Assembly: GCA_905235675.1 (NCBI GenBank)
Contig: CAJONC010000003.1
Coordinates: forward strand, 1 to 64,000
Length of the DNA: 64,000 bases
Direction: 5' to 3'
DNA from: an uncultured Bacteroidales bacterium
GTDB taxonomy: Bacteria > Bacteroidota > Bacteroidia > Bacteroidales > UBA932
The notes beneath the pieces were generated by a model that ran no database searches, had not been told where the DNA came from, and saw only the letters and a program-made list of their open reading frames with translations. Positions 30,502 to 63,877 of the stretch are shown piece after piece (position 1 is the stretch's first letter; the number at the start of each line of letters is the position of its first letter). The position numbers were made by a program, and so were the translations under genes.

Positions 30502-33323
30502 GAAAACTCTTTACCCTGATAGCAACCGCCGCGCTGGCACTTCCCCTCTTCGGGGCCACAAATTCAAAAACAGTCTGGCAGGCATTCCAGAACCCTTCCG
30601 ACGCCTACCGGCCCTATGTGCGCTGGTGGTGGAACGGCGACAGGGTGGACGAGGCTGAGATCCGCCGCGAACTGCGCCTGCTCAAGGATGCAGGCATAGC
30701 CGGCGTGGAGATTAATCCCATCTCCTTCCCCGGAAGGCAGGAAGACACCGTTGGCAAAAAGACCATGGTCTGGCTCAGCGACGAGTGGATAGATATGCTG
30801 GGAGTGGCTTTCGACGAGGCCAAGAAGCTCGGCATGACCTGCGACCTGATAGTTGGTTCGGGCTGGCCTTTCGGCGCCGAAAGCCTGCCCCGCGAGGAAC
30901 GCGCTTCGGTAATGCTCACCTACTGCGACAAGCTTTCTTCGGGAGTGGTCTATGAAAAGTCCCTGTTCCATGTATTCAAGGAACTCGATCCCAAAGTCAC
31001 CATTCCCAATCCCCGCCGTCAGCCCGAACTTCAGAAAGTGCTGATGGTGCCGGATCCCATAAATGACATTTCCGAGGCCGTGGACATCACTGACAAAGTA
31101 AAGGACGGCGTGCTGCGCGTGAAGGCTCCTGCAGGGAACTGGCAGCTTTACTACCTGGTGAAATATGAATCCTTCGCCAGCGTAATCAACGGCGCCCCGG
31201 GTGCCGCGGGCCCCATACTCGACCACATGAACGCGGCCGCCGTACGCAAGTATCTCGACCGCATGTCCGACAGGATAGAATCCAGGCTCGGCCCACTGTC
31301 CGACCATATACGTGCGACCTTCGTGGACAGCATGGAACTGGAAGGGGCCAACTGGACCGGCGATTTCGCCGAGGAGTTCAAGGCGCGCAGGGGATATGAT
31401 TTACTTCCCTGGCTGCCTTTCACCATGTTCAAGGTAAGGCGCCTCGGCGAGGTGGAAGACTTCAACTACGGCTGTGCCAAAGGCGAAAAATTCCAGGACA
31501 GGGTGAACCGCGCCCGTTACGACTTCGAACTTACCAAGGCCGAACTCCTCGAGGAGCGTTTTTTCAAGGTATATGAGCAATGGGCCCGTGATCACGGAGT
31601 AAAATCCCGTGCACAGGGCTATGGCTGCGGATTCTTCATTGAAGAGACTTCGATGGGCCTCGACATTCCCGAAGGGGAGTCCTGGACCACGAACTGGCTG
31701 CGCCATGTGGTAGGCGAGGAGATGGGCGACGAGGATTACCGCCGCGGCCGCGCCTATACCATGATAGACAAATATGTTTCTTCGGCGGCCCATCTTACCG
31801 GCAAGCGCCTGGTGAGCTGCGAAGAGATGACCAATACCTACAATGTGTTCTCCACTTCGCTGGAATACCTGAAGGTAGGATCCGACATGAGCTGCATCTC
31901 CGGAATAACCCATTCGGTTTGGCACGGATTCAACTATTCCCCCAAGGAGGCTCCGTTCCCCGGCTGGGTGCAGTACGGCAGCTATTACAACGAAAAGAAC
32001 ACCTGGTGGCCCTACTGGCATCTGCTGAACGACTACCGCGCCCGCCTGGGCGCCCTCGTCCGCAATGCCGACATGTATACCGACATTGCCATACTTCCCG
32101 CCAACGCCGACCTCTGGTCGACCATGGGTGTGCAGACCGAGCCCTTCCCCGTGAAGCTGAACGTACCCTATACCTCGCTTGTGTGGGAGGCCATCCACAA
32201 GAACGGTGGCGGCGCCGACTATGTTTCGGAAATTATCCTGAGGGATGCTACAGTGAAGAAAGGAAAGCTGTGCTACGGGCCTAAGAGCTACAGCGAGCTG
32301 TTCATGGTGGAAGTCGGCGGAACCACGGTTGAGGCTATGGAGAAGATACGCGAGTTCGTACTCGGCGGAGGCAGGGTGTTCTGCATAGAGAAGTATCCCG
32401 AGAAGTCCGTAGGAATGATGGGTGCCGAGGCGAGGGACGCCCGTATCAAGGCCATAGTCGAAGAACTTTCGGCGACGGGGCGTTTCATCCTTCTCCCCAA
32501 GCCTGAAGGGGATCATTTCCTGGAATGGTACACCGACCTTATGCATGAGTACAATCTCCCTCATTCTGTGGAGATAGGCACTCCGGATCGTTTCCTGCTG
32601 CAGAACCGCTATACCATGGACGACGGCAGCGATTTCTTCCTTTTCGTGAATGCCAGCCGCCTGGAAGGCAAGTCCACCGACATCACCTTCCCCGCGTCCG
32701 TGACAAAGGGGAGGAAGGGCTGGATATACGACCCTGCCACAGGCAAGCGTTATGCCCTCAAGCTGGATGCGTCCGGAAAACTGCATTTCGATTTCGGCCC
32801 TTCGGAGAGCTATGTGTTCATGTTCAACAGGATGGGAGGTTCCGCCCCCGCGTTCAGCCGCAAGCCTGTTTCCGGGGAGGATACCATCGAGTTGAAAGAC
32901 TGGAATGTGAGTTTCGTGAATCCCGAAGTTCCGGATGTTCCTTCCACGACCATGGCGGATCTCAAGGACCTGAAAGATACCGACGAATACAGGAATTTCA
33001 TGGGTGTAGCAACTTACACTACGGTCGTGAATGTCCCTGCCGGCAAGGCATTGCCCAAATATATGAATCTCGGCAATGTAGGATATATAGCCGAAGTGAA
33101 GGTTAACGGTAAGCCCGCGGGGCTGCACTGGTATGGAGAGCCTGTGTTGGATGTTTCAGGCCTGTTCACCACAGGGGACAATACGGTGGAGGTAAAGGTT
33201 ACGACGCTGATGAGCAATTATATGCAGACGCTCACCGATAACCGCAATGCCCAGCGCTTCGTGCTGCGCCGCAACACTCCTCTGAAGCCCGCCGGACTGA
33301 TAGGGCCTGTGAGGTTGTACTAG
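30498..33323 (+). CDS. GH106 family alpha-L-rhamnosidase-like glycosidase
   Basis: A 941-residue secreted enzyme (signal peptide ending LPLFGATN). It opens 'SDAYRPYVRWWWNGDRVDEA' and 'IRRELRLLKDAGIAGVEINP', the GH106 entrance to the barrel. Further GH106 landmarks are 'FVDSMELEGANWTGDFAEEF' and 'RLVSCEEMTNTYNV', with acidic residues in the active-site region. The C-terminal quarter has galactose-binding-like beta domains ('GNVGYIAEVKVNGKPAGLHW'). GH106 enzymes release terminal rhamnose from rhamnogalacturonan I and II. It is translationally coupled to the ADP-ribosylglycohydrolase-fold gene and ends 35 bases before the convergent EEP gene. Confidence 0.85.
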   Translation: MRKLFTLIATAALALPLFGATNSKTVWQAFQNPSDAYRPYVRWWWNGDRVDEAEIRRELRLLKDAGIAGVEINPISFPGRQEDTVGKKTMVWLSDEWIDMLGVAFDEAKKLGMTCDLIVGSGWPFGAESLPREERASVMLTYCDKLSSGVVYEKSLFHVFKELDPKVTIPNPRRQPELQKVLMVPDPINDISEAVDITDKVKDGVLRVKAPAGNWQLYYLVKYESFASVINGAPGAAGPILDHMNAAAVRKYLDRMSDRIESRLGPLSDHIRATFVDSMELEGANWTGDFAEEFKARRGYDLLPWLPFTMFKVRRLGEVEDFNYGCAKGEKFQDRVNRARYDFELTKAELLEERFFKVYEQWARDHGVKSRAQGYGCGFFIEETSMGLDIPEGESWTTNWLRHVVGEEMGDEDYRRGRAYTMIDKYVSSAAHLTGKRLVSCEEMTNTYNVFSTSLEYLKVGSDMSCISGITHSVWHGFNYSPKEAPFPGWVQYGSYYNEKNTWWPYWHLLNDYRARLGALVRNADMYTDIAILPANADLWSTMGVQTEPFPVKLNVPYTSLVWEAIHKNGGGADYVSEIILRDATVKKGKLCYGPKSYSELFMVEVGGTTVEAMEKIREFVLGGGRVFCIEKYPEKSVGMMGAEARDARIKAIVEELSATGRFILLPKPEGDHFLEWYTDLMHEYNLPHSVEIGTPDRFLLQNRYTMDDGSDFFLFVNASRLEGKSTDITFPASVTKGRKGWIYDPATGKRYALKLDASGKLHFDFGPSESYVFMFNRMGGSAPAFSRKPVSGEDTIELKDWNVSFVNPEVPDVPSTTMADLKDLKDTDEYRNFMGVATYTTVVNVPAGKALPKYMNLGNVGYIAEVKVNGKPAGLHWYGEPVLDVSGLFTTGDNTVEVKVTTLMSNYMQTLTDNRNAQRFVLRRNTPLKPAGLIGPVRLY

Positions 33324-33358: not shown

Positions 33359-34201
33359 TTACTTATATTCAAGCACGGATACTATAGGATAATGGTCTGA
33401 TACGTACTGTCTTTCAGCGTAAGGCTTGTCATCCGTATAAAACAGGGGCACGGAAGCAAAACCGGAAACATAGATATAATCTATCACATACTTTTCTTCC
33501 GGTGTCCTGGTGCCCCATCCGTGGTATGAACTCTTGTCGTCAGAGACTTTCGCTATCTTTCTTGCGCTTTCCATCTGCTTGTCAAGGTCGGTCAGGCACT
33601 CATCGTCCGGTAGAACATTGAAGTCTCCGGTCAGAACCATAGGATAGCCATCCGGATTCATGGAAGCAATACTGTCTACAAGAAGTTGAAGGCCATTCTT
33701 TCTGGCCTCGACTCCTTTATGGTCCAGATGGGTATTTACGAAGAAGAACATCTTACCGTTTCTCTTATCCTTCATAAGAGCCCAAGTTGCTGTCCTTCTG
33801 CAGGCGGCATCCCATCCGTAAGAAGGCACGTCGGGTGTTTCGGAGAGCCAATATGTTCCCCAGTCTACCATCTCGACAGTCCTGGCATTCCAGAAAATCG
33901 ACATATGCTCGCCCTTGGATATTCCGTCATCGCGCCCAACACCCACGTTCTTGTAGTCAGGAGCCTCAGCACTTATATAATCCAGCTGATTGGAGAGGGC
34001 TTCCTGCACCCCAAAAACATCAGGCTTCACATCCGCAAGCATCGCTATCGTTGCCTGTTTCCTCAAATCCCAGGCATTTTCACCATCTTTTGGCGTATCA
34101 TAGCGGATGTTATAGGACATCACCGTGAGTTGGTTAGAGTCACTGCAAGAAGCAATAAAGAACAAAGACGCAACAGTCGCAAACAATACAATCCTTTTCA
34201 T
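33359..34201 (-). CDS. Endonuclease/exonuclease/phosphatase (EEP) family lipoprotein
   Basis: A 280-residue lipoprotein (MKRIVLFATVASLFFIASCS). The EEP fold is clear: 'LTVMSYNIRYDTPKDGENAW', the metal Glu in 'DVFGVQEAL', the His in 'FVNTHLDHKG', the Asp/Asn in 'MVLTGDFNVLPDD' and the final 'QYVSDHYPIVSVLE'. All catalytic residues are present. Members cleave phosphoester bonds of very different substrates, from DNA to inositol phosphates and sphingomyelin. As an anchored extracytoplasmic protein at the end of an operon with two other phosphodiesterase-type enzymes and a rhamnosidase, it more likely works on a glycan phosphate or phospholipid headgroup. Confidence 0.85.
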   Translation of the reverse strand: MKRIVLFATVASLFFIASCSDSNQLTVMSYNIRYDTPKDGENAWDLRKQATIAMLADVKPDVFGVQEALSNQLDYISAEAPDYKNVGVGRDDGISKGEHMSIFWNARTVEMVDWGTYWLSETPDVPSYGWDAACRRTATWALMKDKRNGKMFFFVNTHLDHKGVEARKNGLQLLVDSIASMNPDGYPMVLTGDFNVLPDDECLTDLDKQMESARKIAKVSDDKSSYHGWGTRTPEEKYVIDYIYVSGFASVPLFYTDDKPYAERQYVSDHYPIVSVLEYK

Positions 34202-34207: not shown

Positions 34208-36871
34208 TTAACGATTAATGTTGTTACCAATATGGCAATTCAATGAATATGAACCGGAATACAGGTCGTGCTCACTACCATCCGGCAGATATACTTTGGC
34301 AGTGCTGCCGACAGGAATCCTGACATCTATCTTAAACCTGTCTTCTGCTTGTTTCCAACTGACTTCTACTCTTCCATAAGGAGTATCCTTGGAAGCCTTC
34401 ACCCAGGCTATATCCCTGATAAGCTGCGGACGGATAATTATATGCTTGTATCCGGGATCGGATTCATCAGGGTTGATACCTGCCAAAGCCTGATAGAACC
34501 AGGTTCCTATGCCGTTGTAGCAATTGTGGATACGGCTTCTGCGGCCATTCCAGTGCTCCCAGGTCAAGTCTGCGCCATTATCCAGCATATATAGATAGCC
34601 CGGATAATCCCGTTTTTTGAGCATATTGTAAACAAACTCTGTTTCAGATTCCCTTGTGGCCCATTGCGTCAGGACAGGAACCCCGACCAGGCCAGTAGAA
34701 AGGTGGCCTTTGAAACGCCCTTCAGTTTCGTTCCTGAGAGTTTCCTTCACCTTGTCGAGGCAATCCTCAGGTGTTGCTCCTACAAACATAGGATAGACAA
34801 GATCTATCTGGGTACCTGTAGAATAGCTGTTATTATCCGGATTGAAGAATTCCTTATGCAAATTCTCGTTCTGCTCTCTGTGTTTTTCGAGATATAAATC
34901 AGCCTGCTCATGCTTTCCCAGAGCTCTTGCTATCTTCGACATAGTAAGATAACTCTCGGACAATACACAGTTGCTGACAATGTTGATTGAGAGCGGGTCC
35001 TTCTGATCTATTCCGGTTGGGGTTGCCCAGTCACCCAGATACCACCATCTGTAGTCCCTGTCTCCCCAGTTGGTAAGAAGGCCGTTTCTCTTGTATCTTT
35101 CTGCAAACGAGATCCATCTCTCCATATTAGGGTAGAACTTCTCCATCATACGGGTATCACCGTAGTTGAGATAAGTCTGCCACGAGGCTATGATAAGGAA
35201 TTCGCACCAGAACGGACCGCCTCCGGCCCTGTTCGGATTAGGTGCAGTATGGGGCATATCACCGTCTTCCTTCTGGCTGTCCGACCAGGCCTGCAGCCAG
35301 TTCATATAGAGAGGATTCGCATTGAACATTGTCTGGAATGTAGGGGTGGAGGCATTGCCATCTCCACCATATCCCAGTTTTTCGTGATGAGGACAGTCAA
35401 CCATATAGCCACCCAGGGTGAGGGCCTTGACAGTCTTGTGAATCATATTATGAATAGCATTCAAATCCTCATCCGAACATTCGAATTCGGAATCACCATC
35501 ATAATCTGTCGTGATTGCACGTCCTGTAATGGCCGAAGGTTCCAGGGGTTCAGCCAAGCCTTTTATCTCCAGATAACGCAGCGCTTTATACTGGAACTTG
35601 TTGGTGTATCTTGCCGCTGTTTTGCCGTCACCTATATAGACGTCAGCAAAATTCTTCATTTCTCTGAAATCCTTCGGATCCTCCAGATAGAAATCCTCAT
35701 AGAAGAATGTAACTTCCTTGCCGTCACCGACAACAGGCATATCGATTTCGACAAAGCCGACGAACGCGTGACCAAGGTCATACACATAACTGCTGTCCGC
35801 CACCTTATGCACAGCCACCGGCTTGTATGTCTGGTAAAAAACATTTGGCTCACACATCTGAGGAGAAGCTTCGTGTTCGGGGATATCTCCGACAACTACG
35901 GGCTGCCACCGGACAGCGTTAAGAGACTTCGAAGTGAAATCCTTTACGGACTTCCGCAAATCAACGACTTCACCTTTTGTCCAGTCCTTTCCGGAATAAT
36001 AACGTCCGATATCCGCGGCTTCCCAAGTTGAATCCGTCCTTGCCAGCACCTCATATCGCCCGTTACCGATTCTTTCAAGTTGTGCGCGGACATACGGCCC
36101 CCCTGCCACAACGCCCGGTATCCTCTTTAGATACCAGCCTGTCCCGGCCCAGATGACAAGTTCGTTTTCGCCTTTTTCAAGCAGGTCCGTAACATCATAG
36201 GTCCTGATGATGGAGCGCTTCGGATGCTGGCTTACAGCCGGATTCAAGACTGAAGCGGAAACCGGCACCCCGTTGATGTATGCATCGTGATAACCCAGGG
36301 AATTAACGTGAAGGAGAACTCTTTCTTTGCCCGGAGAATAAGTGAATGATTTTCTAAAAAGCGGAGAGATGTGCATATCCTTATCCTCGCGAGGCTGTCG
36401 GATACCTATGAAACACGTATTGCCATCCCAATCGTCCCCACGAAGAAGTCCAATTCCGAAATCGGCGGGTTTACTCCAGGCAGAAGGTTTTCCATTCTCG
36501 TCCCATACCCTCACCTTCCACCAGGCCCGGGTTCTCGGGCCGAGAGGACGCCCGTCAAATACTACTCCCGTTGAGCTTTCTTTTTCCACCTTGCCGCTGT
36601 TCCAAAGGTCGGCTTCTTTCTCATTGAGTCTGTCCGGTTCGCTTGCGACCAGCACCTGATATGCGGTAGAATGGGCGCCTTTTTTCCTGCTGGTCATCTT
36701 CCAGCTGAAACGAGGTGCAGTATTGTCGATTGCCAGTGGATTCTTCAGATAATCACATCTCAAATCATTAATCCTGATGCTGGCGCAACAGGGCATTGCC
36801 AGAAAGGCAAAAACGGCCATTGTCAAAAGCAAGGCCGGCCTGCCAGGGGAATGGATGCTATTTCTTCTCAT
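34208..36871 (-). CDS. GH78 alpha-L-rhamnosidase
   Basis: The start is put at MRRNSIHSPGRPALLLTMAV (36871), the second ATG, overlapping the end of the NAGPA gene by 14 bases. The result is 887 residues. The N-terminal Bac_rhamnosid_N region has 'LRCDYLKNPLAIDNTAPRFS' and 'WNSGKVEKESSTGVVFDGRP', and beta domains follow. The (alpha/alpha)6 catalytic domain has 'VDCPHHEKLGYGGDGNAST' (the usual acid region DCPxREKxGWxGD), 'YRWWYLGDWATP' and 'LDNGADLTWEHWNGR' (catalytic Glu). The end is a beta sandwich. It releases alpha-L-rhamnose. It is fourth in the regulator-led operon. Confidence 0.92.
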   Translation of the reverse strand: MRRNSIHSPGRPALLLTMAVFAFLAMPCCASIRINDLRCDYLKNPLAIDNTAPRFSWKMTSRKKGAHSTAYQVLVASEPDRLNEKEADLWNSGKVEKESSTGVVFDGRPLGPRTRAWWKVRVWDENGKPSAWSKPADFGIGLLRGDDWDGNTCFIGIRQPREDKDMHISPLFRKSFTYSPGKERVLLHVNSLGYHDAYINGVPVSASVLNPAVSQHPKRSIIRTYDVTDLLEKGENELVIWAGTGWYLKRIPGVVAGGPYVRAQLERIGNGRYEVLARTDSTWEAADIGRYYSGKDWTKGEVVDLRKSVKDFTSKSLNAVRWQPVVVGDIPEHEASPQMCEPNVFYQTYKPVAVHKVADSSYVYDLGHAFVGFVEIDMPVVGDGKEVTFFYEDFYLEDPKDFREMKNFADVYIGDGKTAARYTNKFQYKALRYLEIKGLAEPLEPSAITGRAITTDYDGDSEFECSDEDLNAIHNMIHKTVKALTLGGYMVDCPHHEKLGYGGDGNASTPTFQTMFNANPLYMNWLQAWSDSQKEDGDMPHTAPNPNRAGGGPFWCEFLIIASWQTYLNYGDTRMMEKFYPNMERWISFAERYKRNGLLTNWGDRDYRWWYLGDWATPTGIDQKDPLSINIVSNCVLSESYLTMSKIARALGKHEQADLYLEKHREQNENLHKEFFNPDNNSYSTGTQIDLVYPMFVGATPEDCLDKVKETLRNETEGRFKGHLSTGLVGVPVLTQWATRESETEFVYNMLKKRDYPGYLYMLDNGADLTWEHWNGRRSRIHNCYNGIGTWFYQALAGINPDESDPGYKHIIIRPQLIRDIAWVKASKDTPYGRVEVSWKQAEDRFKIDVRIPVGSTAKVYLPDGSEHDLYSGSYSLNCHIGNNINR

Positions 36872-37832
36872 AAACCAAAAGGAACGTGGGAACCGAACGC
36901 TCGCCCGAGTCACTCGGCGTGTTGACCAGTCTTCCTCTTACACTCAAGGCTGTGGATCCGCCACCGTCCATATTAAGCGCATATTGAGGGTTGAAGTGAT
37001 ATTTGAGGAACTGAGTCATCCCCCTTGCAGACATTCCGGCGACGGTACCATAGGTCCTGTCCTTGTCAATCGCAATTAAAAGGAGATGATTATCCCCGGT
37101 CATTGCAAAAACGGTACGGGGATGCGTAACACCCTGATGACGATAAGGATGCTCATAATTATATGAGTTCAACTGGGATTCCGTCAGGTTAGCAGGGACG
37201 AAGTTCTCACCAACCGGGTCATAATTATCTATCAGCATCGGAGCGCTTGAAAATATATTCGGACAAGTATGCAGCCTATAATAACGGCGCTGCTGCGCAA
37301 GATTCATACCCTTACCCGAATACTCCAGATAGACGGTCCCGTCTTCGCGCATGTAAATTGCTCCGTCGTTTTTCCAGTTCGGCACATCCGTATCGCGTAT
37401 GTATGAATTAGAGATATTGTGATACTCTATTCCATCAACCCTTATATATACGGACTGGGGCTCAAAGGTAGCATTTATCGATGCGATTGCACCTTTCTCT
37501 TTCGCAAGGGCAGAACCGACTTTATCCGATGCAAGGACGAATTCAATCCGGTATTTATTGCTGTTCATATCCACGTCCAGAACTCTGACTCTCTGCCTCG
37601 CACAAGTGACCGGGTCATACCCTTCAAATCTATGGAGAAGCAAGCCTTCCGAAACCGTTTCGCTTGTCCAGCCCATCGTCCCGGGCCCGCCCTGAACTTT
37701 ATCCGCAGGTTCTTGGGGGGTCTCCGGTACTTCTTGCGATGTATTGTCTTCAACAGGGATAACGTCTTGCCTGCAAGAAATCAGGATGAGAAAAAAGACC
37801 AGTAATACTGCTGATTTGCAATGATATCTCAT
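36858..37832 (-). CDS. Phosphodiester glycosidase (NAGPA domain) lipoprotein
   Basis: A 324-residue lipoprotein (signal ...FFLILISCRQD). Residues about 60-320 match the NAGPA domain, named for the human uncovering enzyme that removes GlcNAc from a GlcNAc-1-phospho-6-mannose diester. Landmarks are 'CARQRVRVLDVDMNSNKYRI' and the end 'QYALNMDGGGSTALSVRG', 'NTPSDSGERSVPTFLLVYEK'. In bacteria this domain is also found in phosphodiester hydrolases acting on wall polymers and exopolysaccharides. It starts 20 bases after the GDPD fusion gene and overlaps the GH78 start, so it is part of the same transcript. The substrate is unknown. Confidence 0.85.
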   Translation of the reverse strand: MRYHCKSAVLLVFFLILISCRQDVIPVEDNTSQEVPETPQEPADKVQGGPGTMGWTSETVSEGLLLHRFEGYDPVTCARQRVRVLDVDMNSNKYRIEFVLASDKVGSALAKEKGAIASINATFEPQSVYIRVDGIEYHNISNSYIRDTDVPNWKNDGAIYMREDGTVYLEYSGKGMNLAQQRRYYRLHTCPNIFSSAPMLIDNYDPVGENFVPANLTESQLNSYNYEHPYRHQGVTHPRTVFAMTGDNHLLLIAIDKDRTYGTVAGMSARGMTQFLKYHFNPQYALNMDGGGSTALSVRGRLVNTPSDSGERSVPTFLLVYEKK

Positions 37833-37852: not shown

Positions 37853-40800
37853 TTACCTTTTCCCTTTACTTGCCAGAACTTCGATCAGTTCCTCGGGGCA
37901 ATCCGTCATAATCATCTTGCAGGCGGGGAACACATTGAATATCGAATTGACCTGTGACGGATCGATGGATTTGGCGGGGATATAGTCCGCCAGGACGTTC
38001 AGCAGACACACCGTAACCACCATACCGGCATTGTGGGCATTTTTAGCATTGACAGCAGTTCCGCTGGACGGCGTCAATGTGTTGCCCCAGATAGCCTGGA
38101 TGCAATATGGCCCTTTACCCGCCATCTTCCTATAGATGCTATGGTTGAAATAAACCTGTGCATCGGGATTCAGAGAGAGTACTTCATCCACCTTTTCTTC
38201 ACTGTTGCAATAATAAAGCACCTGCCCGTTCATCCCGAGTTTGTCGACAACTTCCATAACCTGTGCGGTGGAAGCCGTCCTCGGGGAATAATCAAGGTTC
38301 ACATATACTTTTCCACGAGCCGCAAGCAGGAACTCTTCGAGCGTAGGCATCTTTTCCGATGTAACTCTCCCGTTCCTGTCTTTCATATAATACGATTTGA
38401 TCTTTGAAAGGGTCAAACTGGGAATATCGCCTGTTCCGTTCGTGGTGGAATTGATTGTCTGGTCGTGACATACCACAACCACTCCGTCAGAAGTGATCTG
38501 TGTATCCGTCTCGATGAATTCTGCGCCGGCGGCAATCGAGGCATTGACTGCAGATACGGAATTCTCGGGAATAGACCAGTCCGTGGTGTGGGCCCTGTGA
38601 GTCATCACCCAGCATTTGTTGCCGTCATGCAGCTCCGCCATTGCTTTATCCAGAGACAGGAGGCTCGAAACAGTTATTTCAAATGAAGCTGAAACGCCTC
38701 CGGCCTTAGCTGTTATTGAATAAACTCCCGGAGCGATAAACTCATGCGAAAGCACTCCGTTGGCGTTAAGCTTTTCGTTGCTTGCCGAACCATCGCCCCA
38801 ATCAACAGAAACATCAGTTGCCTGATAGATATTGAAGAAAGATAGCCTTACAGCCTCCCGCAACATGGCATAAGAAATTGTCGAGGATTTTATGAGTATA
38901 TCTGCTGAAGGAGAAATATGCGTTCCTTCATAAGCTCCAGGCCTCAAGTAATCGGTTTCACGACGATTGCCATTGTAATCTGTTGTCAGAGCTTCCGGAT
39001 CGACTTCATCCAACCAATTCAGAAAGTCCTGTGAAAGAGCCTGCCGGAGTTGTTCAGGCGTTGCCGGATCAAAACCGGCCGGTTGGTCATCCCAATGGTA
39101 GTTATTATCTCTTTCGTCCCACACGGCATTGATCGAAGCGACATTCTGCAGGTCGCTCCTGTGAGGCTGGAAAGCCTGCTCACCGGAGCCGTCGACACTC
39201 CCAAGGATATTATGTCCATATGAGTTCAAGCGGTACTTCTGATTGTTCATTGTAATGGCAGGTTTCGAATCCGCAGTATTTATGACGATACTGTTGATGA
39301 TTCTCCCCTCTGCGTCGTTCTCTACCCGGATTACCCCTCTCAATTTTGTTTCTTCGATGAATGTGCAGTTCGAAACGGAAAAGTGATACTGGCCGTTAAA
39401 AGTCGGGTCGTTGGAAGATACCGTCGAATAGTTGCCATGACTGACACAGTTGTTCATGGCAACGACGGACTGGGAATTGCAACTTGACACCGTACCCCAT
39501 TCACCCCCGTCCAGATAATTTGATATGAACGCACATTTGTTAAAATACAAGAAGGCTTCCGACGAAGAAGCATTGAACACAGCTCCACGGTCGTGCGCAG
39601 AGTTGTTCTCAAAGATACAATTATGGAAGGCCGCTTTTCCGGACGACACAAACAAGGCTCCGCCACGGTAAGCATAATTGGAATAAAAGCAGGCATTATC
39701 TACCTGGAACAAGGCCTCCGGATTGTTCAAATAAACAACACCGCCATAGTTGCTTGCGCCATTTGCATAGGCGAAATCAATGCCGTCGAAAACAAATTTA
39801 AGTGGTGCGCTTATATACATTATGCGTCCACTGTTATTCCCGGTGACAAGCGTTTTGTTATTGTGTATGTCGCGGCAGTCGGTATCTCCATTATGAAGGC
39901 CTTGCGGATATCCTCCTTTGAAATGGCAGGAATACGATCCGGTATCAATAGAGACATTTATATTGTATTCACCTTCGGCCATATGAACCGACACATCTTC
40001 CGTGATTGTCCCTGACCTGAGCAATGCAGACAGTTCGCTCGCTGACATTGCATTTTCCCACGTTTTACCATTCTTTTTGCCCGCACCTGTCTGTGTTACA
40101 TAATAGTTTTTCCCATCCCAGTTGAATTCATAATGCCCATCGGCGGGCACGAGGATATCTTCAAGACTGCCAAGTTCAAGAAGGTCTCCTGCTTCAAGAC
40201 TGATGGATTCGGAAGAAGAGCCCCTTGCTATAAGAGTCCCGGAATCATCATACGCATTTATCGAATACCCTTTGCTCAACTTGCAAGGCAAGGCACCATA
40301 AAAGAAGGTGTCATCATCTGTAACTGAAACAGATATGCTGTCACAGGCATTCGGAACATCGACGGATAACCCGCCATTCTTCAAATTCAGGCCTATGTCC
40401 CCACCGGTGCCGCAGACAGGAGTTCCGTCATTGGAGCGGAACGTCAAGCTTCGAACGCCATTTTTCCCGCAGGAAAAGCGAATGAAAGCAAAAATGGGAT
40501 AAATAACCTGCTCTTCACTTGATTCAGTATCCAGAATACCTGCAAACAACGGCGAAACAGTGTTGACAGTGTACTTATCATTAACCTTTGACATCCCTGT
40601 ACATCCGTATACTGCAAGCACATTCTTACAAGAAGACTCCACCTCCAGCGGTAAGGAAACTACGCCCCCGTTGGAATAGACCTTTGCAGTACGCACGATT
40701 CCCGTTGCAGGATTGACATAAAAAACAGAATCTCCCTTTGTCCAGTAAGGAGAGCTGTTTTCACTAATCGACATTTTAGTATTCAATTTGCCAAGGCGGA

Positions 40801-40921
40801 CAGTCACTCCTTTATATACCAATTCGTCTTTAGTATGTTCCACCGGTTCTGTATCATCGGGTTTTTCGCAAGAAAATGGAACTATACAAGACAGCGCAAA
40901 TAAAAGTAATAGTCGTTTCAT
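37853..40921 (-). CDS. Large lipoprotein: beta-helix, PKD and glycerophosphodiester phosphodiesterase
   Basis: A 1022-residue lipoprotein (MKRLLLLFALSCIVPFSCEK). There are four parts. An N-terminal beta region covers residues 1-270. A parallel beta-helix of polymorphic-repeat type covers about 280-640 ('CHFKGGYPQGLHNGDTDCRD', 'NNPEALFQVDNACFYSNYAY', 'KAAFHNCIFENNSAHDRG'). A PKD domain lies at about 680-755 ('VSVDWGDGSASNEKL', 'EFIAPGVYSITAKAG'). The C-terminal GDPD is at about 770-1015 ('VMTHRAHTTDWSIPENSVSA', 'AEFIETDTQITSDGVVVVCH', 'MTDCPEELIEVL'), with both catalytic His and the metal Glu/Asp. It should release an alcohol from glycerophospho-diesters at the cell surface. It follows the regulator by seven bases. 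Confidence 0.88.
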   Translation of the reverse strand: MKRLLLLFALSCIVPFSCEKPDDTEPVEHTKDELVYKGVTVRLGKLNTKMSISENSSPYWTKGDSVFYVNPATGIVRTAKVYSNGGVVSLPLEVESSCKNVLAVYGCTGMSKVNDKYTVNTVSPLFAGILDTESSEEQVIYPIFAFIRFSCGKNGVRSLTFRSNDGTPVCGTGGDIGLNLKNGGLSVDVPNACDSISVSVTDDDTFFYGALPCKLSKGYSINAYDDSGTLIARGSSSESISLEAGDLLELGSLEDILVPADGHYEFNWDGKNYYVTQTGAGKKNGKTWENAMSASELSALLRSGTITEDVSVHMAEGEYNINVSIDTGSYSCHFKGGYPQGLHNGDTDCRDIHNNKTLVTGNNSGRIMYISAPLKFVFDGIDFAYANGASNYGGVVYLNNPEALFQVDNACFYSNYAYRGGALFVSSGKAAFHNCIFENNSAHDRGAVFNASSSEAFLYFNKCAFISNYLDGGEWGTVSSCNSQSVVAMNNCVSHGNYSTVSSNDPTFNGQYHFSVSNCTFIEETKLRGVIRVENDAEGRIINSIVINTADSKPAITMNNQKYRLNSYGHNILGSVDGSGEQAFQPHRSDLQNVASINAVWDERDNNYHWDDQPAGFDPATPEQLRQALSQDFLNWLDEVDPEALTTDYNGNRRETDYLRPGAYEGTHISPSADILIKSSTISYAMLREAVRLSFFNIYQATDVSVDWGDGSASNEKLNANGVLSHEFIAPGVYSITAKAGGVSASFEITVSSLLSLDKAMAELHDGNKCWVMTHRAHTTDWSIPENSVSAVNASIAAGAEFIETDTQITSDGVVVVCHDQTINSTTNGTGDIPSLTLSKIKSYYMKDRNGRVTSEKMPTLEEFLLAARGKVYVNLDYSPRTASTAQVMEVVDKLGMNGQVLYYCNSEEKVDEVLSLNPDAQVYFNHSIYRKMAGKGPYCIQAIWGNTLTPSSGTAVNAKNAHNAGMVVTVCLLNVLADYIPAKSIDPSQVNSIFNVFPACKMIMTDCPEELIEVLASKGKR

Positions 40922-40928: not shown

Positions 40929-42548
40929 CTATACTTTCTTGTTTTGAATCTGCATTACTTCTGACTCAAAAGAGTCACGTTCGCATATCGCTGCATTTCT
41001 GGCTTTTACGCGATAATTGTAAATCGTGGAGACCGACTTGTTCAGAAAAGAAGCAATCTTCACCGAGTCAGTTACGCCAAACCTGATAAGAGCGAATATG
41101 CGTAGTTCGGTATTCAATGTTCCTTTTCCAATCAATTCTTCTCCGATATGCTTGTCCGGTTCAAGCAATGCATTAAACTGTTCAATAAAATCCGGAAAGA
41201 GACCAAGAAAGGCGTTGTCAAATTCCTTATATATGAACTGCCGCTCTTCATCAATAAACGAATCGGACTTGAGCTCAGACTTTATTGTCTGGATATCGTT
41301 CTGTTTTGCAGTAACCCTTAATTTCGATCTGTATCTTTCCAAGCTATTGATATGATCGGTAAATAATAAAAGATATTGGCCCAATGTGGCATTAAGGGCG
41401 ACGTTGGCAGCCTGAATCTCTTCGTTCTGCTTTTTTATCATGGATTGTGCATCAATTACTTCCTGATGATATTGCCTCAAAGCATTGAATCCATATACGA
41501 GAAATACCAGCATCAGCACCAAAATCAACAGCGCATAAAATAAAGATCTGATAAGTTTCCGCTCCCTGACGCTATAAGCATCATTTATAATGGGGAGGAT
41601 CTGGGATATTTCATTCAGGCATATCCGGGCATCTGAGCTCACAGCTCCCTTGTATGCAAAATCGATAAAACTATATGCCGTTTTAACATCTCCCCGTTCA
41701 TAAAGAAGACGGGCAACCTGAATGATGGACCGCCCTTCCTTGTTTAACAAGCGTACATCATAATCGGCACTGATCGCAAAATTAAGCAGAGCGTTATCAG
41801 TATCGCCTTCATTCAAATATATTTTCGCCTTGAAATAATATAAGATGGGATAATCTTCCAACGGCAATTCCCCACAATCCAGGCGCCTGTCGAGCAAAGC
41901 CAGGGCCTGCTTATACTCTTTATTCTGGATAAGACGATTCACATACTGTGAATAATACTCTATGATCGTATTGTCTTCAGTGCCGTATGAAATGATAGTC
42001 GAAATATAATATGCCTCCTTGCGATGATATATGTCGCGGAGATTCGCGTCTCTTGTCGTGCTTGCAAGTCCGTGCCATATTAGATTCTGTGCAATGTAAT
42101 ACTCCACTTGATTGCCTGAAGAAAAATACAAAACAGAGTCTTGGGAACTTAGTGCGTCCAAAGACGCATTATAAAGGCCGGAGATAGCATAACGGTTTGC
42201 AAGGTCCAGAGTCGCATCCACCATTAAATCGGAATCGTTGCTATGTGCCGCTACAAGGCTTTTTTTATGAGCATAAACAAGCGCAGAATCAACGTTGTTC
42301 TTATAATATAAACCATAGAGGGAATCAAGAATAAAATACTCCTGCCGAGGAGTGCAGGAACCGTTCAAAGAAGATTTTAGTTCCTTGAGGGACCTCTCAC
42401 GGGACTTTTCAATCTCCGGAGCCTCGGAGACAGAATGGTTAAGTTCACGTATTGCATTTTTTATGTCCTCCCTGTAATTGTTCTGACTTGCACAAGAAAA
42501 CAGGATTGGCATAAAACAAATTGCAGCAATATGGATATGGCGTTTCAT
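40929..42548 (-). CDS. DUF6377-type membrane-anchored TPR regulator with C-terminal HTH
   Basis: The start is set at MKRHIHIAAICFMPILFSCA (42548), giving 539 residues with a lipobox-like FSC. A long tetratricopeptide-like helical region fills the periplasmic part ('LMVDATLDLANRYAISGLYN', 'YEQALALLDRR'-type repeats). One transmembrane helix at about 335-355 ('LFYALLILVLMLVFLVYGF') is followed by a coiled coil. A LuxR-like HTH closes the protein ('NTELRIFALIRFGVTDSVKI', 'FLNKSVSTIYNYRVKARNAA'). Bacteroidetes proteins of this build sense glycans across the inner membrane and bind DNA directly. It is the first gene of the phosphodiesterase operon and divergent from susC, so it is the likely controller of both. 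Confidence 0.83.
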   Translation of the reverse strand: MKRHIHIAAICFMPILFSCASQNNYREDIKNAIRELNHSVSEAPEIEKSRERSLKELKSSLNGSCTPRQEYFILDSLYGLYYKNNVDSALVYAHKKSLVAAHSNDSDLMVDATLDLANRYAISGLYNASLDALSSQDSVLYFSSGNQVEYYIAQNLIWHGLASTTRDANLRDIYHRKEAYYISTIISYGTEDNTIIEYYSQYVNRLIQNKEYKQALALLDRRLDCGELPLEDYPILYYFKAKIYLNEGDTDNALLNFAISADYDVRLLNKEGRSIIQVARLLYERGDVKTAYSFIDFAYKGAVSSDARICLNEISQILPIINDAYSVRERKLIRSLFYALLILVLMLVFLVYGFNALRQYHQEVIDAQSMIKKQNEEIQAANVALNATLGQYLLLFTDHINSLERYRSKLRVTAKQNDIQTIKSELKSDSFIDEERQFIYKEFDNAFLGLFPDFIEQFNALLEPDKHIGEELIGKGTLNTELRIFALIRFGVTDSVKIASFLNKSVSTIYNYRVKARNAAICERDSFESEVMQIQNKKV

Positions 42549-42560
42549 TATAGCAATATG

Positions 42561-42568
42561 CAAATGTA
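42561..42568 (-). promoter_or_regulatory. Putative -7 box (TACATTTG) for the regulator-led operon
   Basis: The minus-strand TACATTTG ends 12 bases before the chosen ATG. The 226-base divergent region (42549-42774) is AT-rich and must also carry the regulator's binding site. I saw no convincing dyad in it. Confidence 0.45.
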
Positions 42569-42774: not shown

Positions 42775-45700
42775 ATGAAGCTATTTTCACGATTAACAGT
42801 AATTTTGCTGGTGTTTTCCATCTCCGAAGCGATTAATGGGGAAATGACTCTCCTTTCCGCACAAGATGGGAAAACAGTCACCGTGACAGTAAGCGACGAG
42901 ATAGGCCCGGTTATGGGGGCTACGGTTGCGATTAAAGGCACCAGCAAAGGTGTTGTAACGGACCTTGATGGCAAAGCGGTCTTGCACAATGTTCCCTCAA
43001 GGGCAGTTCTCCAAGTTTCCTGTCTGGGTTATCTTCCCCAAGAAATCGAAGCGGTGAAATCTACTGTCAGCATCTTTCTTGTGGTTGATTCTCAAGTTCT
43101 TGATGACGTAATTGTTATCGGTTATGGCACCGCCAAACGTAAAGACTATACCGGATCGGTATCCTCGGTCAAACTTCAAGACTCTCCTATCGCCCAGGTG
43201 AACAATCTGAACCCCATAGAAGCAATCAAGGGTAATGTCCCGGGGCTTGATGTCGGCGCGACAAACAGCGCGGGAGGAAGCCCGGGAATGCAGATTCGCG
43301 GACAAAAATCAATCTCAGGATCAAACGACCCTTTACTGGTGGTGGACGGCGTCATATTCCTGGGGAGCATCAACGATATCAATCCGAATGATGTGGCTTC
43401 GTTCGATATTCTCAAGGATGCGACTTCTGCCGCCGCTTTCGGTTCCCGTTCGGCCAATGGTGTCATTATGATAACGACCAAAAAAGGCCGCAGCCAGAAA
43501 CCGGTATTCACTTTCAACACAACCGGCAGCCTGCAGTATTGGAACAACAGGCCGGAAGTAATGGGGCCCGATCAGTGGATTAAGACGGTGATGGCTAGAA
43601 ACAATGCTGCCGATCTTTCCTGGATGACACCTCAGGAGAAAGCTAATATGGCCGCCGGCAAAGCCACGGACTGGTTCGATCTGGTCAGCCGCACAGGATT
43701 TGTGCAGGATCATCAGATTTCCGTTTCCGGTGCCGGCAACAAGGTCAACTATTATCTTTCCGGATCCTTTTCACAGAACCAGGGTATAGTCGTCGGCGAC
43801 GACTTCAGCAGAATCTCGGTTTTATCCAAAATCAACGCAGATATTACCAACTGGATGCAAATCGGCTTTGACGCGTCATATACATTCAGGGATTATTCCG
43901 GTGCCGGAGCCAGTTTGTCCAGGGCTTATACGGAATCTCCTTATGGCGTCTGCTTCCGGGATGAGGCGCACACACAACTCGAAAAATATCCGGATGAACA
44001 GGGAAGCGAAAACCCGTTATGGGGTGTTCTGGGTGATACTCGTGAAAATACAGACACGAGAAACAATTTCAGAATGAATGCGTTCGCGCTTATCAAGTGT
44101 CCATGGATCGAGGGTTTGAGTTACCGCATCAATTATTCAAACAACCTTACTACCCGCAGGACAAGTGACTTCTATTACGAATCCCACTACGTGCCTACCG
44201 GACCTACTTCCGATGCAACCAGATATGCTCCTAACACTTTGGAAAAATTGCTCTCACAGGCGAACGGAACTATTACAAATTATACAACCAAAAGTTGGGT
44301 TCTCGACAATATCCTTAACTACAACAGATCTTTTGGTGTCCACTCCGTCGACTTGACAGCCGTCGCGACCAGAGACCGCCAGGTTTATGACTGGATTGAA
44401 ACGACCGGCTCTGACTTTTCGGCCAATGGCAACACGTCATTAGGAATCAACGGTCTCCCTAAGGCCACTGTCCAATTAATCAACATGGGAGGTAACGAGC
44501 GTGCCAACATCGGTTATCTGGTCAGGGGAATGTACTCCTACGACGACCGTTACTTCCTGACAGCATCTTATCGCCGTGACGGGGCGTCCGTATTCGGACT
44601 CAATAAAAAATGGGGCAATTACGCCGCATTCGGACTTGCCTGGAAAGTCACCAATGAGTCATTTATGCCGACTTCTTTCAAAGAGAACATCCTGAATAAT
44701 CTGAAACTCAAGGCATCTTGGGGAAGGAATGGCAATCAGAGCATCGATCCGTTCGGAACATACTCCAGAATGAAAAATGGCGTTGACGGAGGAGTCCGCT
44801 ATGAATTCGGCGACGACAACATCATTTACGGACTTCAGGCAAGTGAACTTGGCAATGCCGACCTGGGCTGGGAGTCCACGACCGCCATCAACCTTGGCTT
44901 TGAATCCGCCTGGCTCAGAAACAGGATTTTCCTTGATGTCGACACCTACGTTTCTCAAACGACGAATCAGATCTTTACACGCAAGATTCCTGTTATGATT
45001 GGTTTTGCAGGGATGAAAACCACGATGGGACAGGTCGACAATTTCGGTATAGAAGCAACCCTCAGGACCATAAACATCAGGACCAAGAATTTCACCTGGG
45101 ACTCCAGTGTCATGTTCTGGATCAACAGAAACAAGCTGGTTCACCTGTATGGAGAAGATCTTGACGGCGATGGCAAAGAAGATGATGATGTAGGAAGCGA
45201 ACTCTTCATAGGCAAACATCTCGGCGCTATTTACGGATACCGTCAGGATGGTATCGTTCAGGAGGATGACACTGAATACATCACTGCAAACGGTGTGGCG
45301 CCGGGAACCCCCAAATACGTAGACCTTTCCGGTGATGGTATCATCAACGCCGATGACAGGGAGATTCTTGGTTATTCCTCACCAAATTTCAGGCTGAATC
45401 TTGCCAATACATTCACCTACAAGAATTGGGAGCTCTACTGCCTGCTTACCGGCACATTTGGTGGAAATGGCTATTACCTCAAGTCCAATACCGGGGCATA
45501 TATGGTATACAGTTCGATGTTCGCAAATAACGGCATCTACATCCCTTGGTGGACTCCCCAGAACAAGAGCAATGTCTATCCTTCCGCGACTTTCGGTGGG
45601 GACAGCCGTTTCCTCGGTCTGCAGGACCGTGCGTTCGTCCGCCTTCAGGATGTCACTTTATCTTACACAATCCGGAACGAGAAGGTAAAGGCGTTCGGTA

Positions 45701-45849
45701 TCAACGGCCTGAAGGTATTCCTTTCCGCAAAGAATATCTTGACGCTCACCAAATGGGAAGGTGCAGATCCTGAAACAGGAGCCGGTGTTTCATCGGGCAC
45801 TTATCCTATTCTGACATCTGTTTCTCTTGGTGCCAATATCAACTTCTAA
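42775..45849 (+). CDS. SusC/RagA-type TonB-linked outer-membrane glycan importer
   Basis: A 1024-residue protein. A signal peptide is followed by a carboxypeptidase-regulatory-like domain ('GAAVAIKG'-type, here 'VMGATVAIKGTSKGVVTDLD') and the TonB-box-like 'DDVIVIGYGTAKRKDYTGSV'. The plug has 'LNPIEAIKGNVPGLDVG' and 'SNDPLLVVDGVIF' through 'AAAFGSRSANGVIMITTKKG', all SusC/RagA hallmarks. The barrel ends 'PILTSVSLGANINF'. It imports oligosaccharides held by SusD, energised by TonB. It is first in a susC-susD-lipoprotein set. Confidence 0.95.
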   Translation: MKLFSRLTVILLVFSISEAINGEMTLLSAQDGKTVTVTVSDEIGPVMGATVAIKGTSKGVVTDLDGKAVLHNVPSRAVLQVSCLGYLPQEIEAVKSTVSIFLVVDSQVLDDVIVIGYGTAKRKDYTGSVSSVKLQDSPIAQVNNLNPIEAIKGNVPGLDVGATNSAGGSPGMQIRGQKSISGSNDPLLVVDGVIFLGSINDINPNDVASFDILKDATSAAAFGSRSANGVIMITTKKGRSQKPVFTFNTTGSLQYWNNRPEVMGPDQWIKTVMARNNAADLSWMTPQEKANMAAGKATDWFDLVSRTGFVQDHQISVSGAGNKVNYYLSGSFSQNQGIVVGDDFSRISVLSKINADITNWMQIGFDASYTFRDYSGAGASLSRAYTESPYGVCFRDEAHTQLEKYPDEQGSENPLWGVLGDTRENTDTRNNFRMNAFALIKCPWIEGLSYRINYSNNLTTRRTSDFYYESHYVPTGPTSDATRYAPNTLEKLLSQANGTITNYTTKSWVLDNILNYNRSFGVHSVDLTAVATRDRQVYDWIETTGSDFSANGNTSLGINGLPKATVQLINMGGNERANIGYLVRGMYSYDDRYFLTASYRRDGASVFGLNKKWGNYAAFGLAWKVTNESFMPTSFKENILNNLKLKASWGRNGNQSIDPFGTYSRMKNGVDGGVRYEFGDDNIIYGLQASELGNADLGWESTTAINLGFESAWLRNRIFLDVDTYVSQTTNQIFTRKIPVMIGFAGMKTTMGQVDNFGIEATLRTINIRTKNFTWDSSVMFWINRNKLVHLYGEDLDGDGKEDDDVGSELFIGKHLGAIYGYRQDGIVQEDDTEYITANGVAPGTPKYVDLSGDGIINADDREILGYSSPNFRLNLANTFTYKNWELYCLLTGTFGGNGYYLKSNTGAYMVYSSMFANNGIYIPWWTPQNKSNVYPSATFGGDSRFLGLQDRAFVRLQDVTLSYTIRNEKVKAFGINGLKVFLSAKNILTLTKWEGADPETGAGVSSGTYPILTSVSLGANINF

Positions 45850-45868
45850 TGCCCAGACAACAATCCAT

Positions 45869-47641
45869 ATGAAAAAGTACATATATATTATTGCCGCGCT
45901 TCTGTCGCTGACGGCCATCTCAGGATGCAATGATGAAAAATTCCTTGAAGAGAACCCCAAGTATTTCTATACCCCGGACAATATCTTTTCTACAGCCACC
46001 CAGGTGGACCAGGTACTGGCAGCTTGTTACTCCCACATACGCCAGATGTATTGCATCGAAATCAATTATTACACATTGAATTGGAGCGGCAGCAACGGAA
46101 CGGACATGTTCGATGTCCCCGTATTCCGCCGTGGCAATACATTCAACGATTACAGCACGATCAATCCGGACATTTCGACATTCGACACCAGCTTCAAGCA
46201 ATGGTTCTATCTTATTTCCAAAGCGAATCTGGCACTTCGTTCCGCACAATTGGAAGGTATCTACTGGGGGGATGAGAAGAACAGGGCTTATGCAATCGCA
46301 CAGGCCAAGTTCTTCCGCTCCTGGGCATATATGAACCTTGGTGAACTCTTCGGAGGGGTCCCGATTGTCGACGATGTTGTCGACATCCCCCGATACGACT
46401 TTGTACGTTCAACGCGTGTCGAGACTTATCAGTTTGCAATCGACGATCTCGAATCCTGTCTGAACGACTTTCCCGAGTTCCCTGAGAAACCCGGCCGCAT
46501 AGCCAAGGGTGCAGCACAGCATGCGCTAATCGAGCTTTACCTCGACAAGGGAATTGCTCTTAAGGAAGAGGGTAAAGAAGCAGAAGCAAAACAGGCATTC
46601 AAAAAATCAATCGATTATGGTGACGCTCTTATCGATGGCCCTACACATTCATTGATGACTTCGCGGTTTGGCAGCCGTAAAACTGAAGGCCCCGTTTTCT
46701 ACTACGCCACAAGCGTTGCAGACCAAACTCCGGAACATTCGTATGCTTCTGCCGGTGTCAATATCGAAGGAAACGTCTTCTGGGACTTGTTCCAGGTGGG
46801 CAACACTTCATATCAGGCAGGCAACAAAGAATCCATCTGGACTATTTCTGCCAATTATGATGCCTGGGTCCGTGAAGACGAATCTGCCGGTTTCAATTTC
46901 TCCCGCACCTACGGCCCTGTATTCAGGGATGCCTGCTCAGACTATTGCACGGGCAGTATGGAAGATGTCGGAGGACACGGTGTATGCTTTATTATGCCTA
47001 CAATGTATACAAGAGACCTCATCTATCAGGATAAATGGGGAAGCGACATGAGAAATTCCGAGGCTGTCCTTCGCAGGTCATTCATTGGGAACGTGCCCGG
47101 CAAGGAATGGTATGGAAAAGTGATTCCGTGGAGCACCCTGTATCGTGAAGGCGGAAGCGTCGATGAAGGAAGAGGCCGTGTATTCCCGGTATCCTGCAAG
47201 ATCAACTCTGACTTTTATCCTGGAGTAGCCCAGGGTTCCAACAGAACCATGCTCTTCCGTGATCAGTATGCCATCAGGCTTGCCGAAAGCATACTCCTGC
47301 GTGCAGAAGCAAAGATGCGCAATGATGACAATGCCGGAGCTGCTTCCGATATCAATATGCTTCGTAACCGCGCAAAATGCGGCTACCTTGTCACTGCCGC
47401 CGATGTGAACGTGGATCTGATTCTTGATGAACGCGCGCGGGAACTTGTATACGAAGAACACCGTTGGAACACTCTTCTTAGAATGGGCGGTACCGTAGCT
47501 ACCGACAGAATCAAGAAATACGCTTACTGGGATAACCCCAGAACCACCCTGACCAAGAATTTCAATCTCTGGCCCATACCTCAGAATGTTATCGACAGCA
47601 ACAAAGAAGCTGTTATCGAGCAGAACCCTGGATGGAACTAA
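45869..47641 (+). CDS. SusD/RagB-type glycan-binding lipoprotein
   Basis: The start is set at MKKYIYIIAALLSLTAISGC (45869), 14 codons into the track ORF, giving 590 residues with lipobox ISGC. Typical SusD features are 'CNDEKFLEENPKYFYTPDNI' after the cysteine, 'AQAKFFRSWAYMNLGELFGG' with the TPR-type helices, and the end 'NLWPIPQNVIDSNK' and 'QNPGWN'. It forms the lid over the upstream SusC and gives the pair its sugar specificity. It begins 19 bases after the susC stop. Confidence 0.95.
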   Translation: MKKYIYIIAALLSLTAISGCNDEKFLEENPKYFYTPDNIFSTATQVDQVLAACYSHIRQMYCIEINYYTLNWSGSNGTDMFDVPVFRRGNTFNDYSTINPDISTFDTSFKQWFYLISKANLALRSAQLEGIYWGDEKNRAYAIAQAKFFRSWAYMNLGELFGGVPIVDDVVDIPRYDFVRSTRVETYQFAIDDLESCLNDFPEFPEKPGRIAKGAAQHALIELYLDKGIALKEEGKEAEAKQAFKKSIDYGDALIDGPTHSLMTSRFGSRKTEGPVFYYATSVADQTPEHSYASAGVNIEGNVFWDLFQVGNTSYQAGNKESIWTISANYDAWVREDESAGFNFSRTYGPVFRDACSDYCTGSMEDVGGHGVCFIMPTMYTRDLIYQDKWGSDMRNSEAVLRRSFIGNVPGKEWYGKVIPWSTLYREGGSVDEGRGRVFPVSCKINSDFYPGVAQGSNRTMLFRDQYAIRLAESILLRAEAKMRNDDNAGAASDINMLRNRAKCGYLVTAADVNVDLILDERARELVYEEHRWNTLLRMGGTVATDRIKKYAYWDNPRTTLTKNFNLWPIPQNVIDSNKEAVIEQNPGWN

Positions 47642-51841: not shown

Positions 51842-51880
51842 CTTCGTTGCAGGCGATGAAATCGCTCAGGGCCTTGCCCT
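51842..51880 (-). pseudogene. 39-base fragment of an htpG 3' end
   Basis: This stretch aligns base for base with 23028-23066, the end of htpG, with about seven differences. On the minus strand it reads '[12 protein letters not shown]', against '[12 protein letters not shown]' in HtpG. It starts directly after the GH78 stop codon, in the same frame, and ends beside the inverted-repeat element. It is too short to function. Confidence 0.7.
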
Positions 51881-54047: not shown

Positions 54048-54048
54048 A

Positions 54049-54633
54049 TTATTCCCTGGTGTCAGTGAAGCATCCTTCCACCTTTACATCGCTGTTCACG
54101 GCCTCGTAGAACTTGCTTCCCGTGGCGGCGTTGCGATACAGCACCTTCTGGAGCTTGATGTTCTTGCAGTTCTCAAAGTAGAAAAGGGTGGGAACAGGGG
54201 TTCCTGCGGGAAGATATCCTTTCTCCTTCTGGTCGTTCCAGCTTTGGAGCACGAGTTCTCCGCGGCCGTCCACCACACCGTTTCCGCGGGTAGTATAGAT
54301 GGTGACATTCTCCACTCCTACTGCGTTGAATATGGCCTTCTGCCCTTTGTAGCCATAGATGTTGTCGGTGCCGATGATGTCGGCGGCAGCATCGAGGCGG
54401 ATATTCACACCGCTCTTGAGATTGACGGCTCCGGTGACGAAGCGTCCTACCGAGAAGGTAAGGGTGCCGCCGCCCTGCTCCGCGATGTAATCGATGGCTT
54501 TCTGTATGCTGGTGGTATTGTCGGTGACGCCGTTACTCTTGATGCCGAAGTAGGATACAAGGTATTCCTTTCCCTGTGCGAAACCCGAAATGCAGAGCAA
54601 TGCAGCTGCTGCGAATGCAATTATCTTTTTCAT
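54049..54633 (-). CDS. Short GH28/pectate-lyase-like beta-helix protein (194 aa)
   Basis: A signal peptide (ending ISGFAQ) is followed by 'KEYLVSYFGIKSNGVTDNTT', 'AIDYIAEQGGGTLTFSVGRF' and 'GVVDGRGELVLQSWND'. This is the usual N-terminal third of a GH28-type beta-helix. The protein stops after 'CFTDTRE', before any of the acidic catalytic positions found in its two neighbours. It is either a naturally short binding or helper protein or a truncated enzyme. Reading frame, signal peptide and coupling (stop-start overlap of one base with the upstream gene, one-base gap to GH78) are all intact, so it is probably expressed. Confidence 0.75.
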   Translation of the reverse strand: MKKIIAFAAAALLCISGFAQGKEYLVSYFGIKSNGVTDNTTSIQKAIDYIAEQGGGTLTFSVGRFVTGAVNLKSGVNIRLDAAADIIGTDNIYGYKGQKAIFNAVGVENVTIYTTRGNGVVDGRGELVLQSWNDQKEKGYLPAGTPVPTLFYFENCKNIKLQKVLYRNAATGSKFYEAVNSDVKVEGCFTDTRE

Positions 54634-56126: not shown

Positions 56127-56132
56127 TCCGTT

Positions 56133-57617: not shown

Positions 57618-57620
57618 ATA

Positions 57621-62314: not shown

Positions 62315-62334
62315 ATTCTCGTTATTGTCGTTTA

Positions 62335-62342: not shown

Positions 62343-62363
62343 ATCAAATAATTCGTTTTTCTT

Positions 62364-62396: not shown

Positions 62397-62414
62397 GATT
62401 ATAAGAAGAAACAA

Positions 62415-63863: not shown

Positions 63864-63877
63864 ATTCAATACTTTAC

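Follow-up and report, generated by a model that had tools for sequence, protein, structure and literature searches.

The window, a 64,000-nucleotide stretch of contig CAJONC010000003.1 from an uncultured Bacteroidales bacterium, contains a single unbroken ORF of 1022 codons at 37853..40921 on the minus strand, a strand that the first-pass annotation of this DNA had not given. The leader (40850..40921, minus strand) resembles that of a lipoprotein, with acidic residues directly after Cys18 (CEKPDDTE); the lipobox is relaxed, reading PFSC here and LFSC in a relative. In Bacteroidetes, acidic residues after the lipoprotein cysteine serve as an export signal to the outer-membrane surface, so that the protein is probably a surface-exposed lipoprotein, as judged from this motif. 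A protein of the same architecture, 61% identical over residues 16–1022, is encoded by a second species represented by a MAG from water buffalo (L037/G493). The relative named 'Bacteroidales bacterium RGIG7808' came from water buffalo reticulum. A frameshift or assembly join as the source of the fusion was ruled out, since the second species encodes the full length; the proposal that one lipoprotein joins a beta-helix, a PKD-like domain and a glycerophosphodiester phosphodiesterase (GDPD) is therefore upheld, and the architecture is rare but real.

The GDPD catalytic barrel comprises residues 763–1022 (37856..38635, minus strand) and was identified by PF03009 (E=7e-23, 82.4 bits against a curated cut-off of 23.6), by AF2 and by Foldseek. 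The AF2 model is a TIM barrel with a pLDDT of about 86–98, and its best PDB neighbours were 3i10, 3mz2 and 2pz0 (E-values between 8e-14 and 7e-12; TM-score by target 0.76–0.82). Alignments placed the active site within 38291..38599 of the minus strand, with both histidines, H775 and H819, present and kept in the aligned relatives and with E804, D806 and D877 as the three acidic metal ligands. The GDPD is thus complete in its histidines and metal acids, as had been claimed, with the correction that the third metal site holds an Asp where a Glu is usual. D877 aligns with the Glu of 2pz0 ('VNLD' compared with 'VNIE'), an acid-for-acid exchange, and the same Asp occurs in 3i10. The structure prediction that had been proposed as a check accordingly gave a confident barrel with H775, E804, D806, H819 and D877 all present. 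From the family match, the barrel and these residues the domain is predicted to hydrolyse phosphodiesters, and we know of no activity established for its subfamily. GDPDs in general are stand-alone proteins. The first-pass annotation had noted this correctly; within the present family, however, GDPDs are fairly often fused to sugar-related domains. Another GDPD of the same genome forms the C-terminal part of a 1682-aa GH106 rhamnosidase chain, with endonuclease/exonuclease/phosphatase-family (EEP) genes alongside.

After the leader comes a beta-rich N-terminal domain at residues about 26–257 (40151..40846, minus strand), which is shared with further lipoproteins of this family and matched no family in a Pfam search. 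This domain of 230 residues had been overlooked in the first reading of the sequence. Its assignment as fimbrillin-like (Mfa_like_1) was rejected, as hhalign gave a probability of 0.2 against the Mfa_like_1 domains of relatives and there was no Pfam match. The right-handed beta-helix occupies residues about 263–675 (38897..40135, minus strand) and was recognised by AF2, Foldseek and the family alignment; no Pfam model scored above its cut-off in this region and a PDB sequence search gave no match. The N-terminal two thirds of the first full-chain AF2 model were not used because MAFFT had misplaced six rows of beta-helix and N-domain fragments, and the beta-helix was modelled separately from a clean alignment of 12 relatives. 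The resulting model is a solenoid of short strands with a pLDDT of 86 and a pTM of 0.89. Its best structural match was the surface protein Rhombotarget A (2.4e-5), ahead of weaker matches to pectin methylesterases and to pectate lyase Pel9A (1e-3). The conserved columns of the 12 relatives were searched for the catalytic Lys/Arg and acid cluster of lyases and pectin enzymes, and contained no invariant or near-invariant lysine and no acid cluster; the only acids conserved to this degree, E277 and D391 (fragment numbering), are far apart in sequence. The earlier description of the beta-helix as lyase-like is consequently not supported. The beta-helix is followed by the PKD-like domain at residues about 683–756 (38654..38875, minus strand), with DWGDGS at 707. 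Its own PKD profile score is low (E=0.11, 13 bits against a cut-off of 27), while relatives match PKD or PKD_4 at up to 2e-5, and AF2 gives a confident small beta domain with a pLDDT of 80–93.

The gene lies in a same-strand run in which DUF6377, GDPD, NAGPA, GH78 and EEP genes are separated by 7 bp, 20 bp, an overlap and 6 bp, a spacing that suggests co-transcription. The DUF6377 membrane protein (40929..42563, minus strand; PF19904 5.8e-56) is encoded 7 bp upstream of the GDPD gene and is the likely regulator of the cluster; members of its family also stand beside GDPD genes in L037, G184, G190 and G385. The NAGPA phosphodiester glycosidase lipoprotein (36858..37832, minus strand; PF09992 5e-22) is encoded 20 bp downstream. 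It is followed by a GH78 alpha-L-rhamnosidase (34208..36913, start likely 36871, minus strand; PF17389 5e-90) and by an EEP lipoprotein (33359..34201, minus strand; PF03372 1.8e-11). Farther out lie an ADP-ribosylglycohydrolase-family gene and a GH106 alpha-L-rhamnosidase (30498..33323, plus strand; PF17132 3e-55). Divergent from the run are a SusC-like TonB-dependent transporter (42775..45849, plus strand), a SusD-like lipoprotein (45827..47641, plus strand; PF07980 8e-29) whose orthologue in G493 is 84% identical, a BT_3987-like lipoprotein in the glycan-binding position (47684..49294, plus strand; PF08522 7e-11) with an orthologue in G493, and a SusB-type GH97 alpha-glucosidase (49368..51713, plus strand; PF10566 7e-101). 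The GH97 scored 849 bits to SusB (2d73) compared with 140 to the alpha-galactosidase 3a24. The locus thus carries the SusC/SusD pair and carbohydrate-active enzymes (CAZymes) that define a polysaccharide utilisation locus (PUL). A GH28-rich cluster lies next door at 51879–59909.

In searches of this genome NAGPA is present as a single copy, which adjoins the GDPD gene, an arrangement whose chance probability is of the order of one in a thousand given a few thousand genes. A profile built from four NAGPAs matched the human uncovering enzyme 6pki, while the single sequence gave no match when searched against the PDB. The human enzyme cleaves GlcNAc-1-phosphate diesters. The cluster NAGPA shares the sequence family and NLDGGGS motif of the human uncovering enzyme and DUF2233 proteins (NAGPA; 6pki, 3ohg), but differs from the human enzyme in being a bacterial lipoprotein of a PUL. 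The cluster of G493 keeps the DUF6377, NAGPA, GDPD fusion, GH78, SusC, SusD, BT3987-like and GH97 genes in a changed order, with NAGPA still touching the GDPD gene. The unfused GDPDs of G336 and G613 form the sister clade of the GDPD studied here (support 95/90), and both loci have a homologous NAGPA (39–41% identity) close to the GDPD, directly adjacent in G336. These sister loci contain GH84/GH123 in place of rhamnosidases, indicating that the glycan differs among members; clusters of relatives also carry GH20, GH84 or GH3. SusCD pairs related to that of the window adjoin GH106 or GH78 in G252 and G565, and no GDPD was seen in the stretches examined there. This argues that the base substrate contains rhamnose, that the phosphodiester enzymes are an addition and that the GDPD is not essential to this type of SusCD.

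Close matches to the fusion protein (E<=1e-25) were found in 26 of 400 sampled genomes of the genus, most of which had no close homologue, and nearly all of these homologues are PKD-GDPD proteins of about 370–460 residues. Across the order, one other genome of 393 gave a match at E<=1e-28. A phage origin was rejected, as tblastn against phages returned matches to the GDPD domain only and none of full length. Four fused architectures were distinguished: N-beta-helix-PKD-GDPD in the window and G493; N-PKD-GDPD-beta-helix in G545 (1073 aa); beta-helix-GDPD in G430 (1107 aa); and beta-helix-GDPD-DUF4996-FG-GAP with a type IX secretion (T9SS) tail in G009 (1340 aa), adjoining GH92. A tree of the GDPDs requires four changes between the fused and unfused states, three of which are forced by well-supported branches. 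Three changes could in principle represent one gain and two losses; taken with the differing domain orders, the tree points to more than one joining of beta-helix and GDPD. At no fewer than 12 of some 19 loci, SusC has an unfused PKD-GDPD gene as its immediate neighbour on the same strand, and SusD and then one or two beta-helix lipoproteins usually come next. The fused protein therefore unites two lipoproteins that are encoded as neighbours elsewhere in the genus, and we take the repeated joining as evidence that both parts act on one object.

The individual parts of this system (GDPD, beta-helix lipoprotein, PUL) are already known, and their combination is a variant. The GDPD structures 3i10 (B. 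thetaiotaomicron), 3mz2 (Parabacteroides) and 2pz0 (T. tengcongensis) have the same barrel and active-site layout, with the 'VNLD' Asp shared by 3i10, but are proteins of about 240–290 residues that lack the beta-helix and PKD-like domain. Phage tail and spike proteins (phi812 9eul, phage K 9f5m, enterococcal phages) likewise bear a GDPD on a larger surface-acting protein, although the scaffold is different and the target is a host cell-wall polymer attacked during infection. Classical Bacteroidetes PULs have the same SusC, SusD, surface lipoprotein, GH78, GH106 and SusB-type GH97, to which the present cluster adds a GDPD and a NAGPA, with the DUF6377 protein as likely regulator. The PULs described to date mostly act on glycans that are neutral, acidic or sulfated, and phosphodiester-bearing targets are little described. 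A search of open-access papers gave none that deals with PULs and GDPDs together in Bacteroidetes.

Taken together, the fusion is best explained as a PUL enzyme, probably anchored at the surface, with a GDPD that removes phosphodiester groups (in all likelihood glycerol phosphate) from a glycan containing rhamnose, a reading to which we assign a probability of roughly 60%. The beta-helix and N-terminal domain would keep the glycan bound to the cell's exterior, close to SusC/SusD, with the PKD-like domain as a spacer, while the GDPD would take off the phosphodiester groups and NAGPA would cut those of another kind, sugar-1-P-6-sugar. The GH78 and GH106 rhamnosidases and the GH97 alpha-glucosidase could then finish the now uncharged oligosaccharide. 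The first-pass suggestion that the phosphodiester is part of a polysaccharide gains support from the SusC/SusD and CAZyme genes of the cluster, the adjacent sole NAGPA, the unfused homologues beside SusC/SusD and the GDPD–GH106 fusion. Counting against the best explanation, acidic residues outnumber basic ones in the beta-helix as a whole (48 D+E vs 27 K+R), a composition that on its own would not favour binding of a polyanion. The related rhamnosidase-bearing SusCD loci in which no GDPD was seen, the GH84/GH123 of the sister loci and the small share of the genus with a close homologue also weigh against it.

The best explanation can take more specific forms, which are not exclusive of it. Rhamnose cell-wall polysaccharides decorated with glycerol phosphate would fit the gene set best, and the target might be those of Gram-positive neighbours of the streptococcus/lactococcus type, with the GDPD removing glycerol phosphate from an alpha-Glc side chain, GH97 the glucose, GH78/GH106 trimming the polyrhamnose and NAGPA attacking a GlcNAc-1-P anchor. 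The polymer of S. mutans is a polyrhamnose with alpha-Glc side chains that carry glycerol phosphate at O6 (PMC11754754), and the anchor of streptococcal rhamnopolysaccharide is GlcN(Ac) 1-phosphate (PMC8807736). The gene set would supply one enzyme type for each of these bonds, including the SusB-type GH97. Rhamnosidases are, however, also standard for pectin, and the neighbouring cluster is rich in GH28. Streptococcal glycerol phosphate is believed to be of the opposite form to sn-glycerol-3-phosphate. The stereospecificity of GlpQ-type GDPDs for sn-glycerol-3-phosphate (PMC7086022) thus speaks against this specific target, to which we give a rather low probability. In another form, the substrate would be poly(glycerol phosphate) of teichoic acids, attacked by the GDPD and also by the beta-helix itself. 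It draws on the precedent of GlpQ, a GDPD that degrades wall teichoic acid exolytically (PMC7086022), on the staphylococcal phage spikes with GDPD domains among the structural matches (9eul, 9f5m) and on the GH20 and GH84 HexNAc-ases in the clusters of relatives, but common teichoic acids need no rhamnosidases and the beta-helix has no conserved catalytic acid cluster, making this form quite improbable.

Among the rivals proper, phosphate scavenging is the strongest. Here the protein would release glycerol phosphate from organic phosphorus such as deacylated phospholipids, and SusCD would import the product, as in the Flavobacterium phosphate utilisation systems (PUS; PusCD, FI/FII/FIII lipoproteins; PMC8115612). 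In those clusters phosphodiesterases are encoded together with SusCD-like transporters, and the same response induces abundant beta-helix-like lipoproteins whose homology to pectate lyases and polygalacturonases is weak (PMC8115612). Phosphodiesterases are also found at 576 SusCD loci without known CAZymes (PMC6499787), and beta-helix lipoproteins, GDPD and SusCD recur together in the genus. The PUS, however, are described as free of CAZymes, are phosphate-regulated and have separately encoded phosphodiesterases from other families (PMC8115612), whereas the present locus accompanies its phosphodiesterase with GH78, GH106 and GH97, and those of relatives have GH20, GH84 or GH3. The cluster showed no gene of the alkaline phosphatase type, and NAGPA is a glycosidase for sugar-1-phosphate diesters. 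The CAZymes and NAGPA disfavour scavenging as the main role, which we regard as unlikely. A further reading makes the beta-helix the catalytic domain, a polysaccharide lyase or hydrolase with the GDPD as accessory. The right-handed fold and the weak Foldseek matches to Pel9A and pectin methylesterases would agree with it, but the conserved columns described above, the better match to Rhombotarget A and the lack of a PDB sequence match leave it very little room.

The occurrence of the fusion in a sugar-harvesting cluster suggests digestion of a polysaccharide that bears phosphodiesters, for example glycerol phosphate. More broadly, and tentatively, these clusters may form a PUL class of gut Bacteroidales directed at phosphodiester-bearing bacterial cell-wall or capsular glycans, in which a GDPD displayed at the surface on a beta-helix would act together with a phosphodiester glycosidase as a decapping step before the rhamnosidases and glucosidases. 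With a surface GDPD, a phosphodiester glycosidase and rhamnosidases together in one cluster, it would become possible to test whether gut Bacteroidales use cell-wall polysaccharides of neighbouring Gram-positive bacteria as food.

A single open reading frame of 1682 residues on contig C8 of the window's own genome (fetched stretch L045, 4958-10006) was found to combine a GH106 rhamnosidase, a histidine-phosphatase region with a sub-threshold match, and a GDPD. This frame is neighboured by two EEP-family genes and one SGNH-like protein. The stretch L044 contained a complete GH2 beta-galactosidase with a GDPD joined at its N-terminus (5108-8899), and similar frames of 1263-1314 amino acids were present in further genomes of the same genus. 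GDPD-DUF4996 was joined to a six-hairpin domain of the 'glutaminase A' type in L092 (2593-5061). The 1037-residue protein of L073 (14215-17328) consisted of an N-terminal GDPD and a long, repeat-like C-terminal part, for which a Pfam search gave no match.

NAGPA was fused behind BACON / BT3987-like domains in L074 (6635-9157) and L075 (9017-11527), where PKD-GDPD genes adjoin or lie close to the fusions. In G336, the relative whose unfused GDPD belongs to the sister clade, GH84 and GH123 were located close to a BACON / BT3987-like–NAGPA fusion.

The window also contained a separate pectin-type cluster on the minus strand (51879-63926), comprising GH78-like, GH28, GH3 and GH31 genes and a Big_2 protein. 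Two of its GH28 reading frames directly adjoin each other (54049-54633 and 54633-56126), and stops occur inside the SusD match immediately beyond the window end. An exported ADP-ribosylglycohydrolase-family protein (28915-30501) is encoded directly ahead of the window's GH106 gene.
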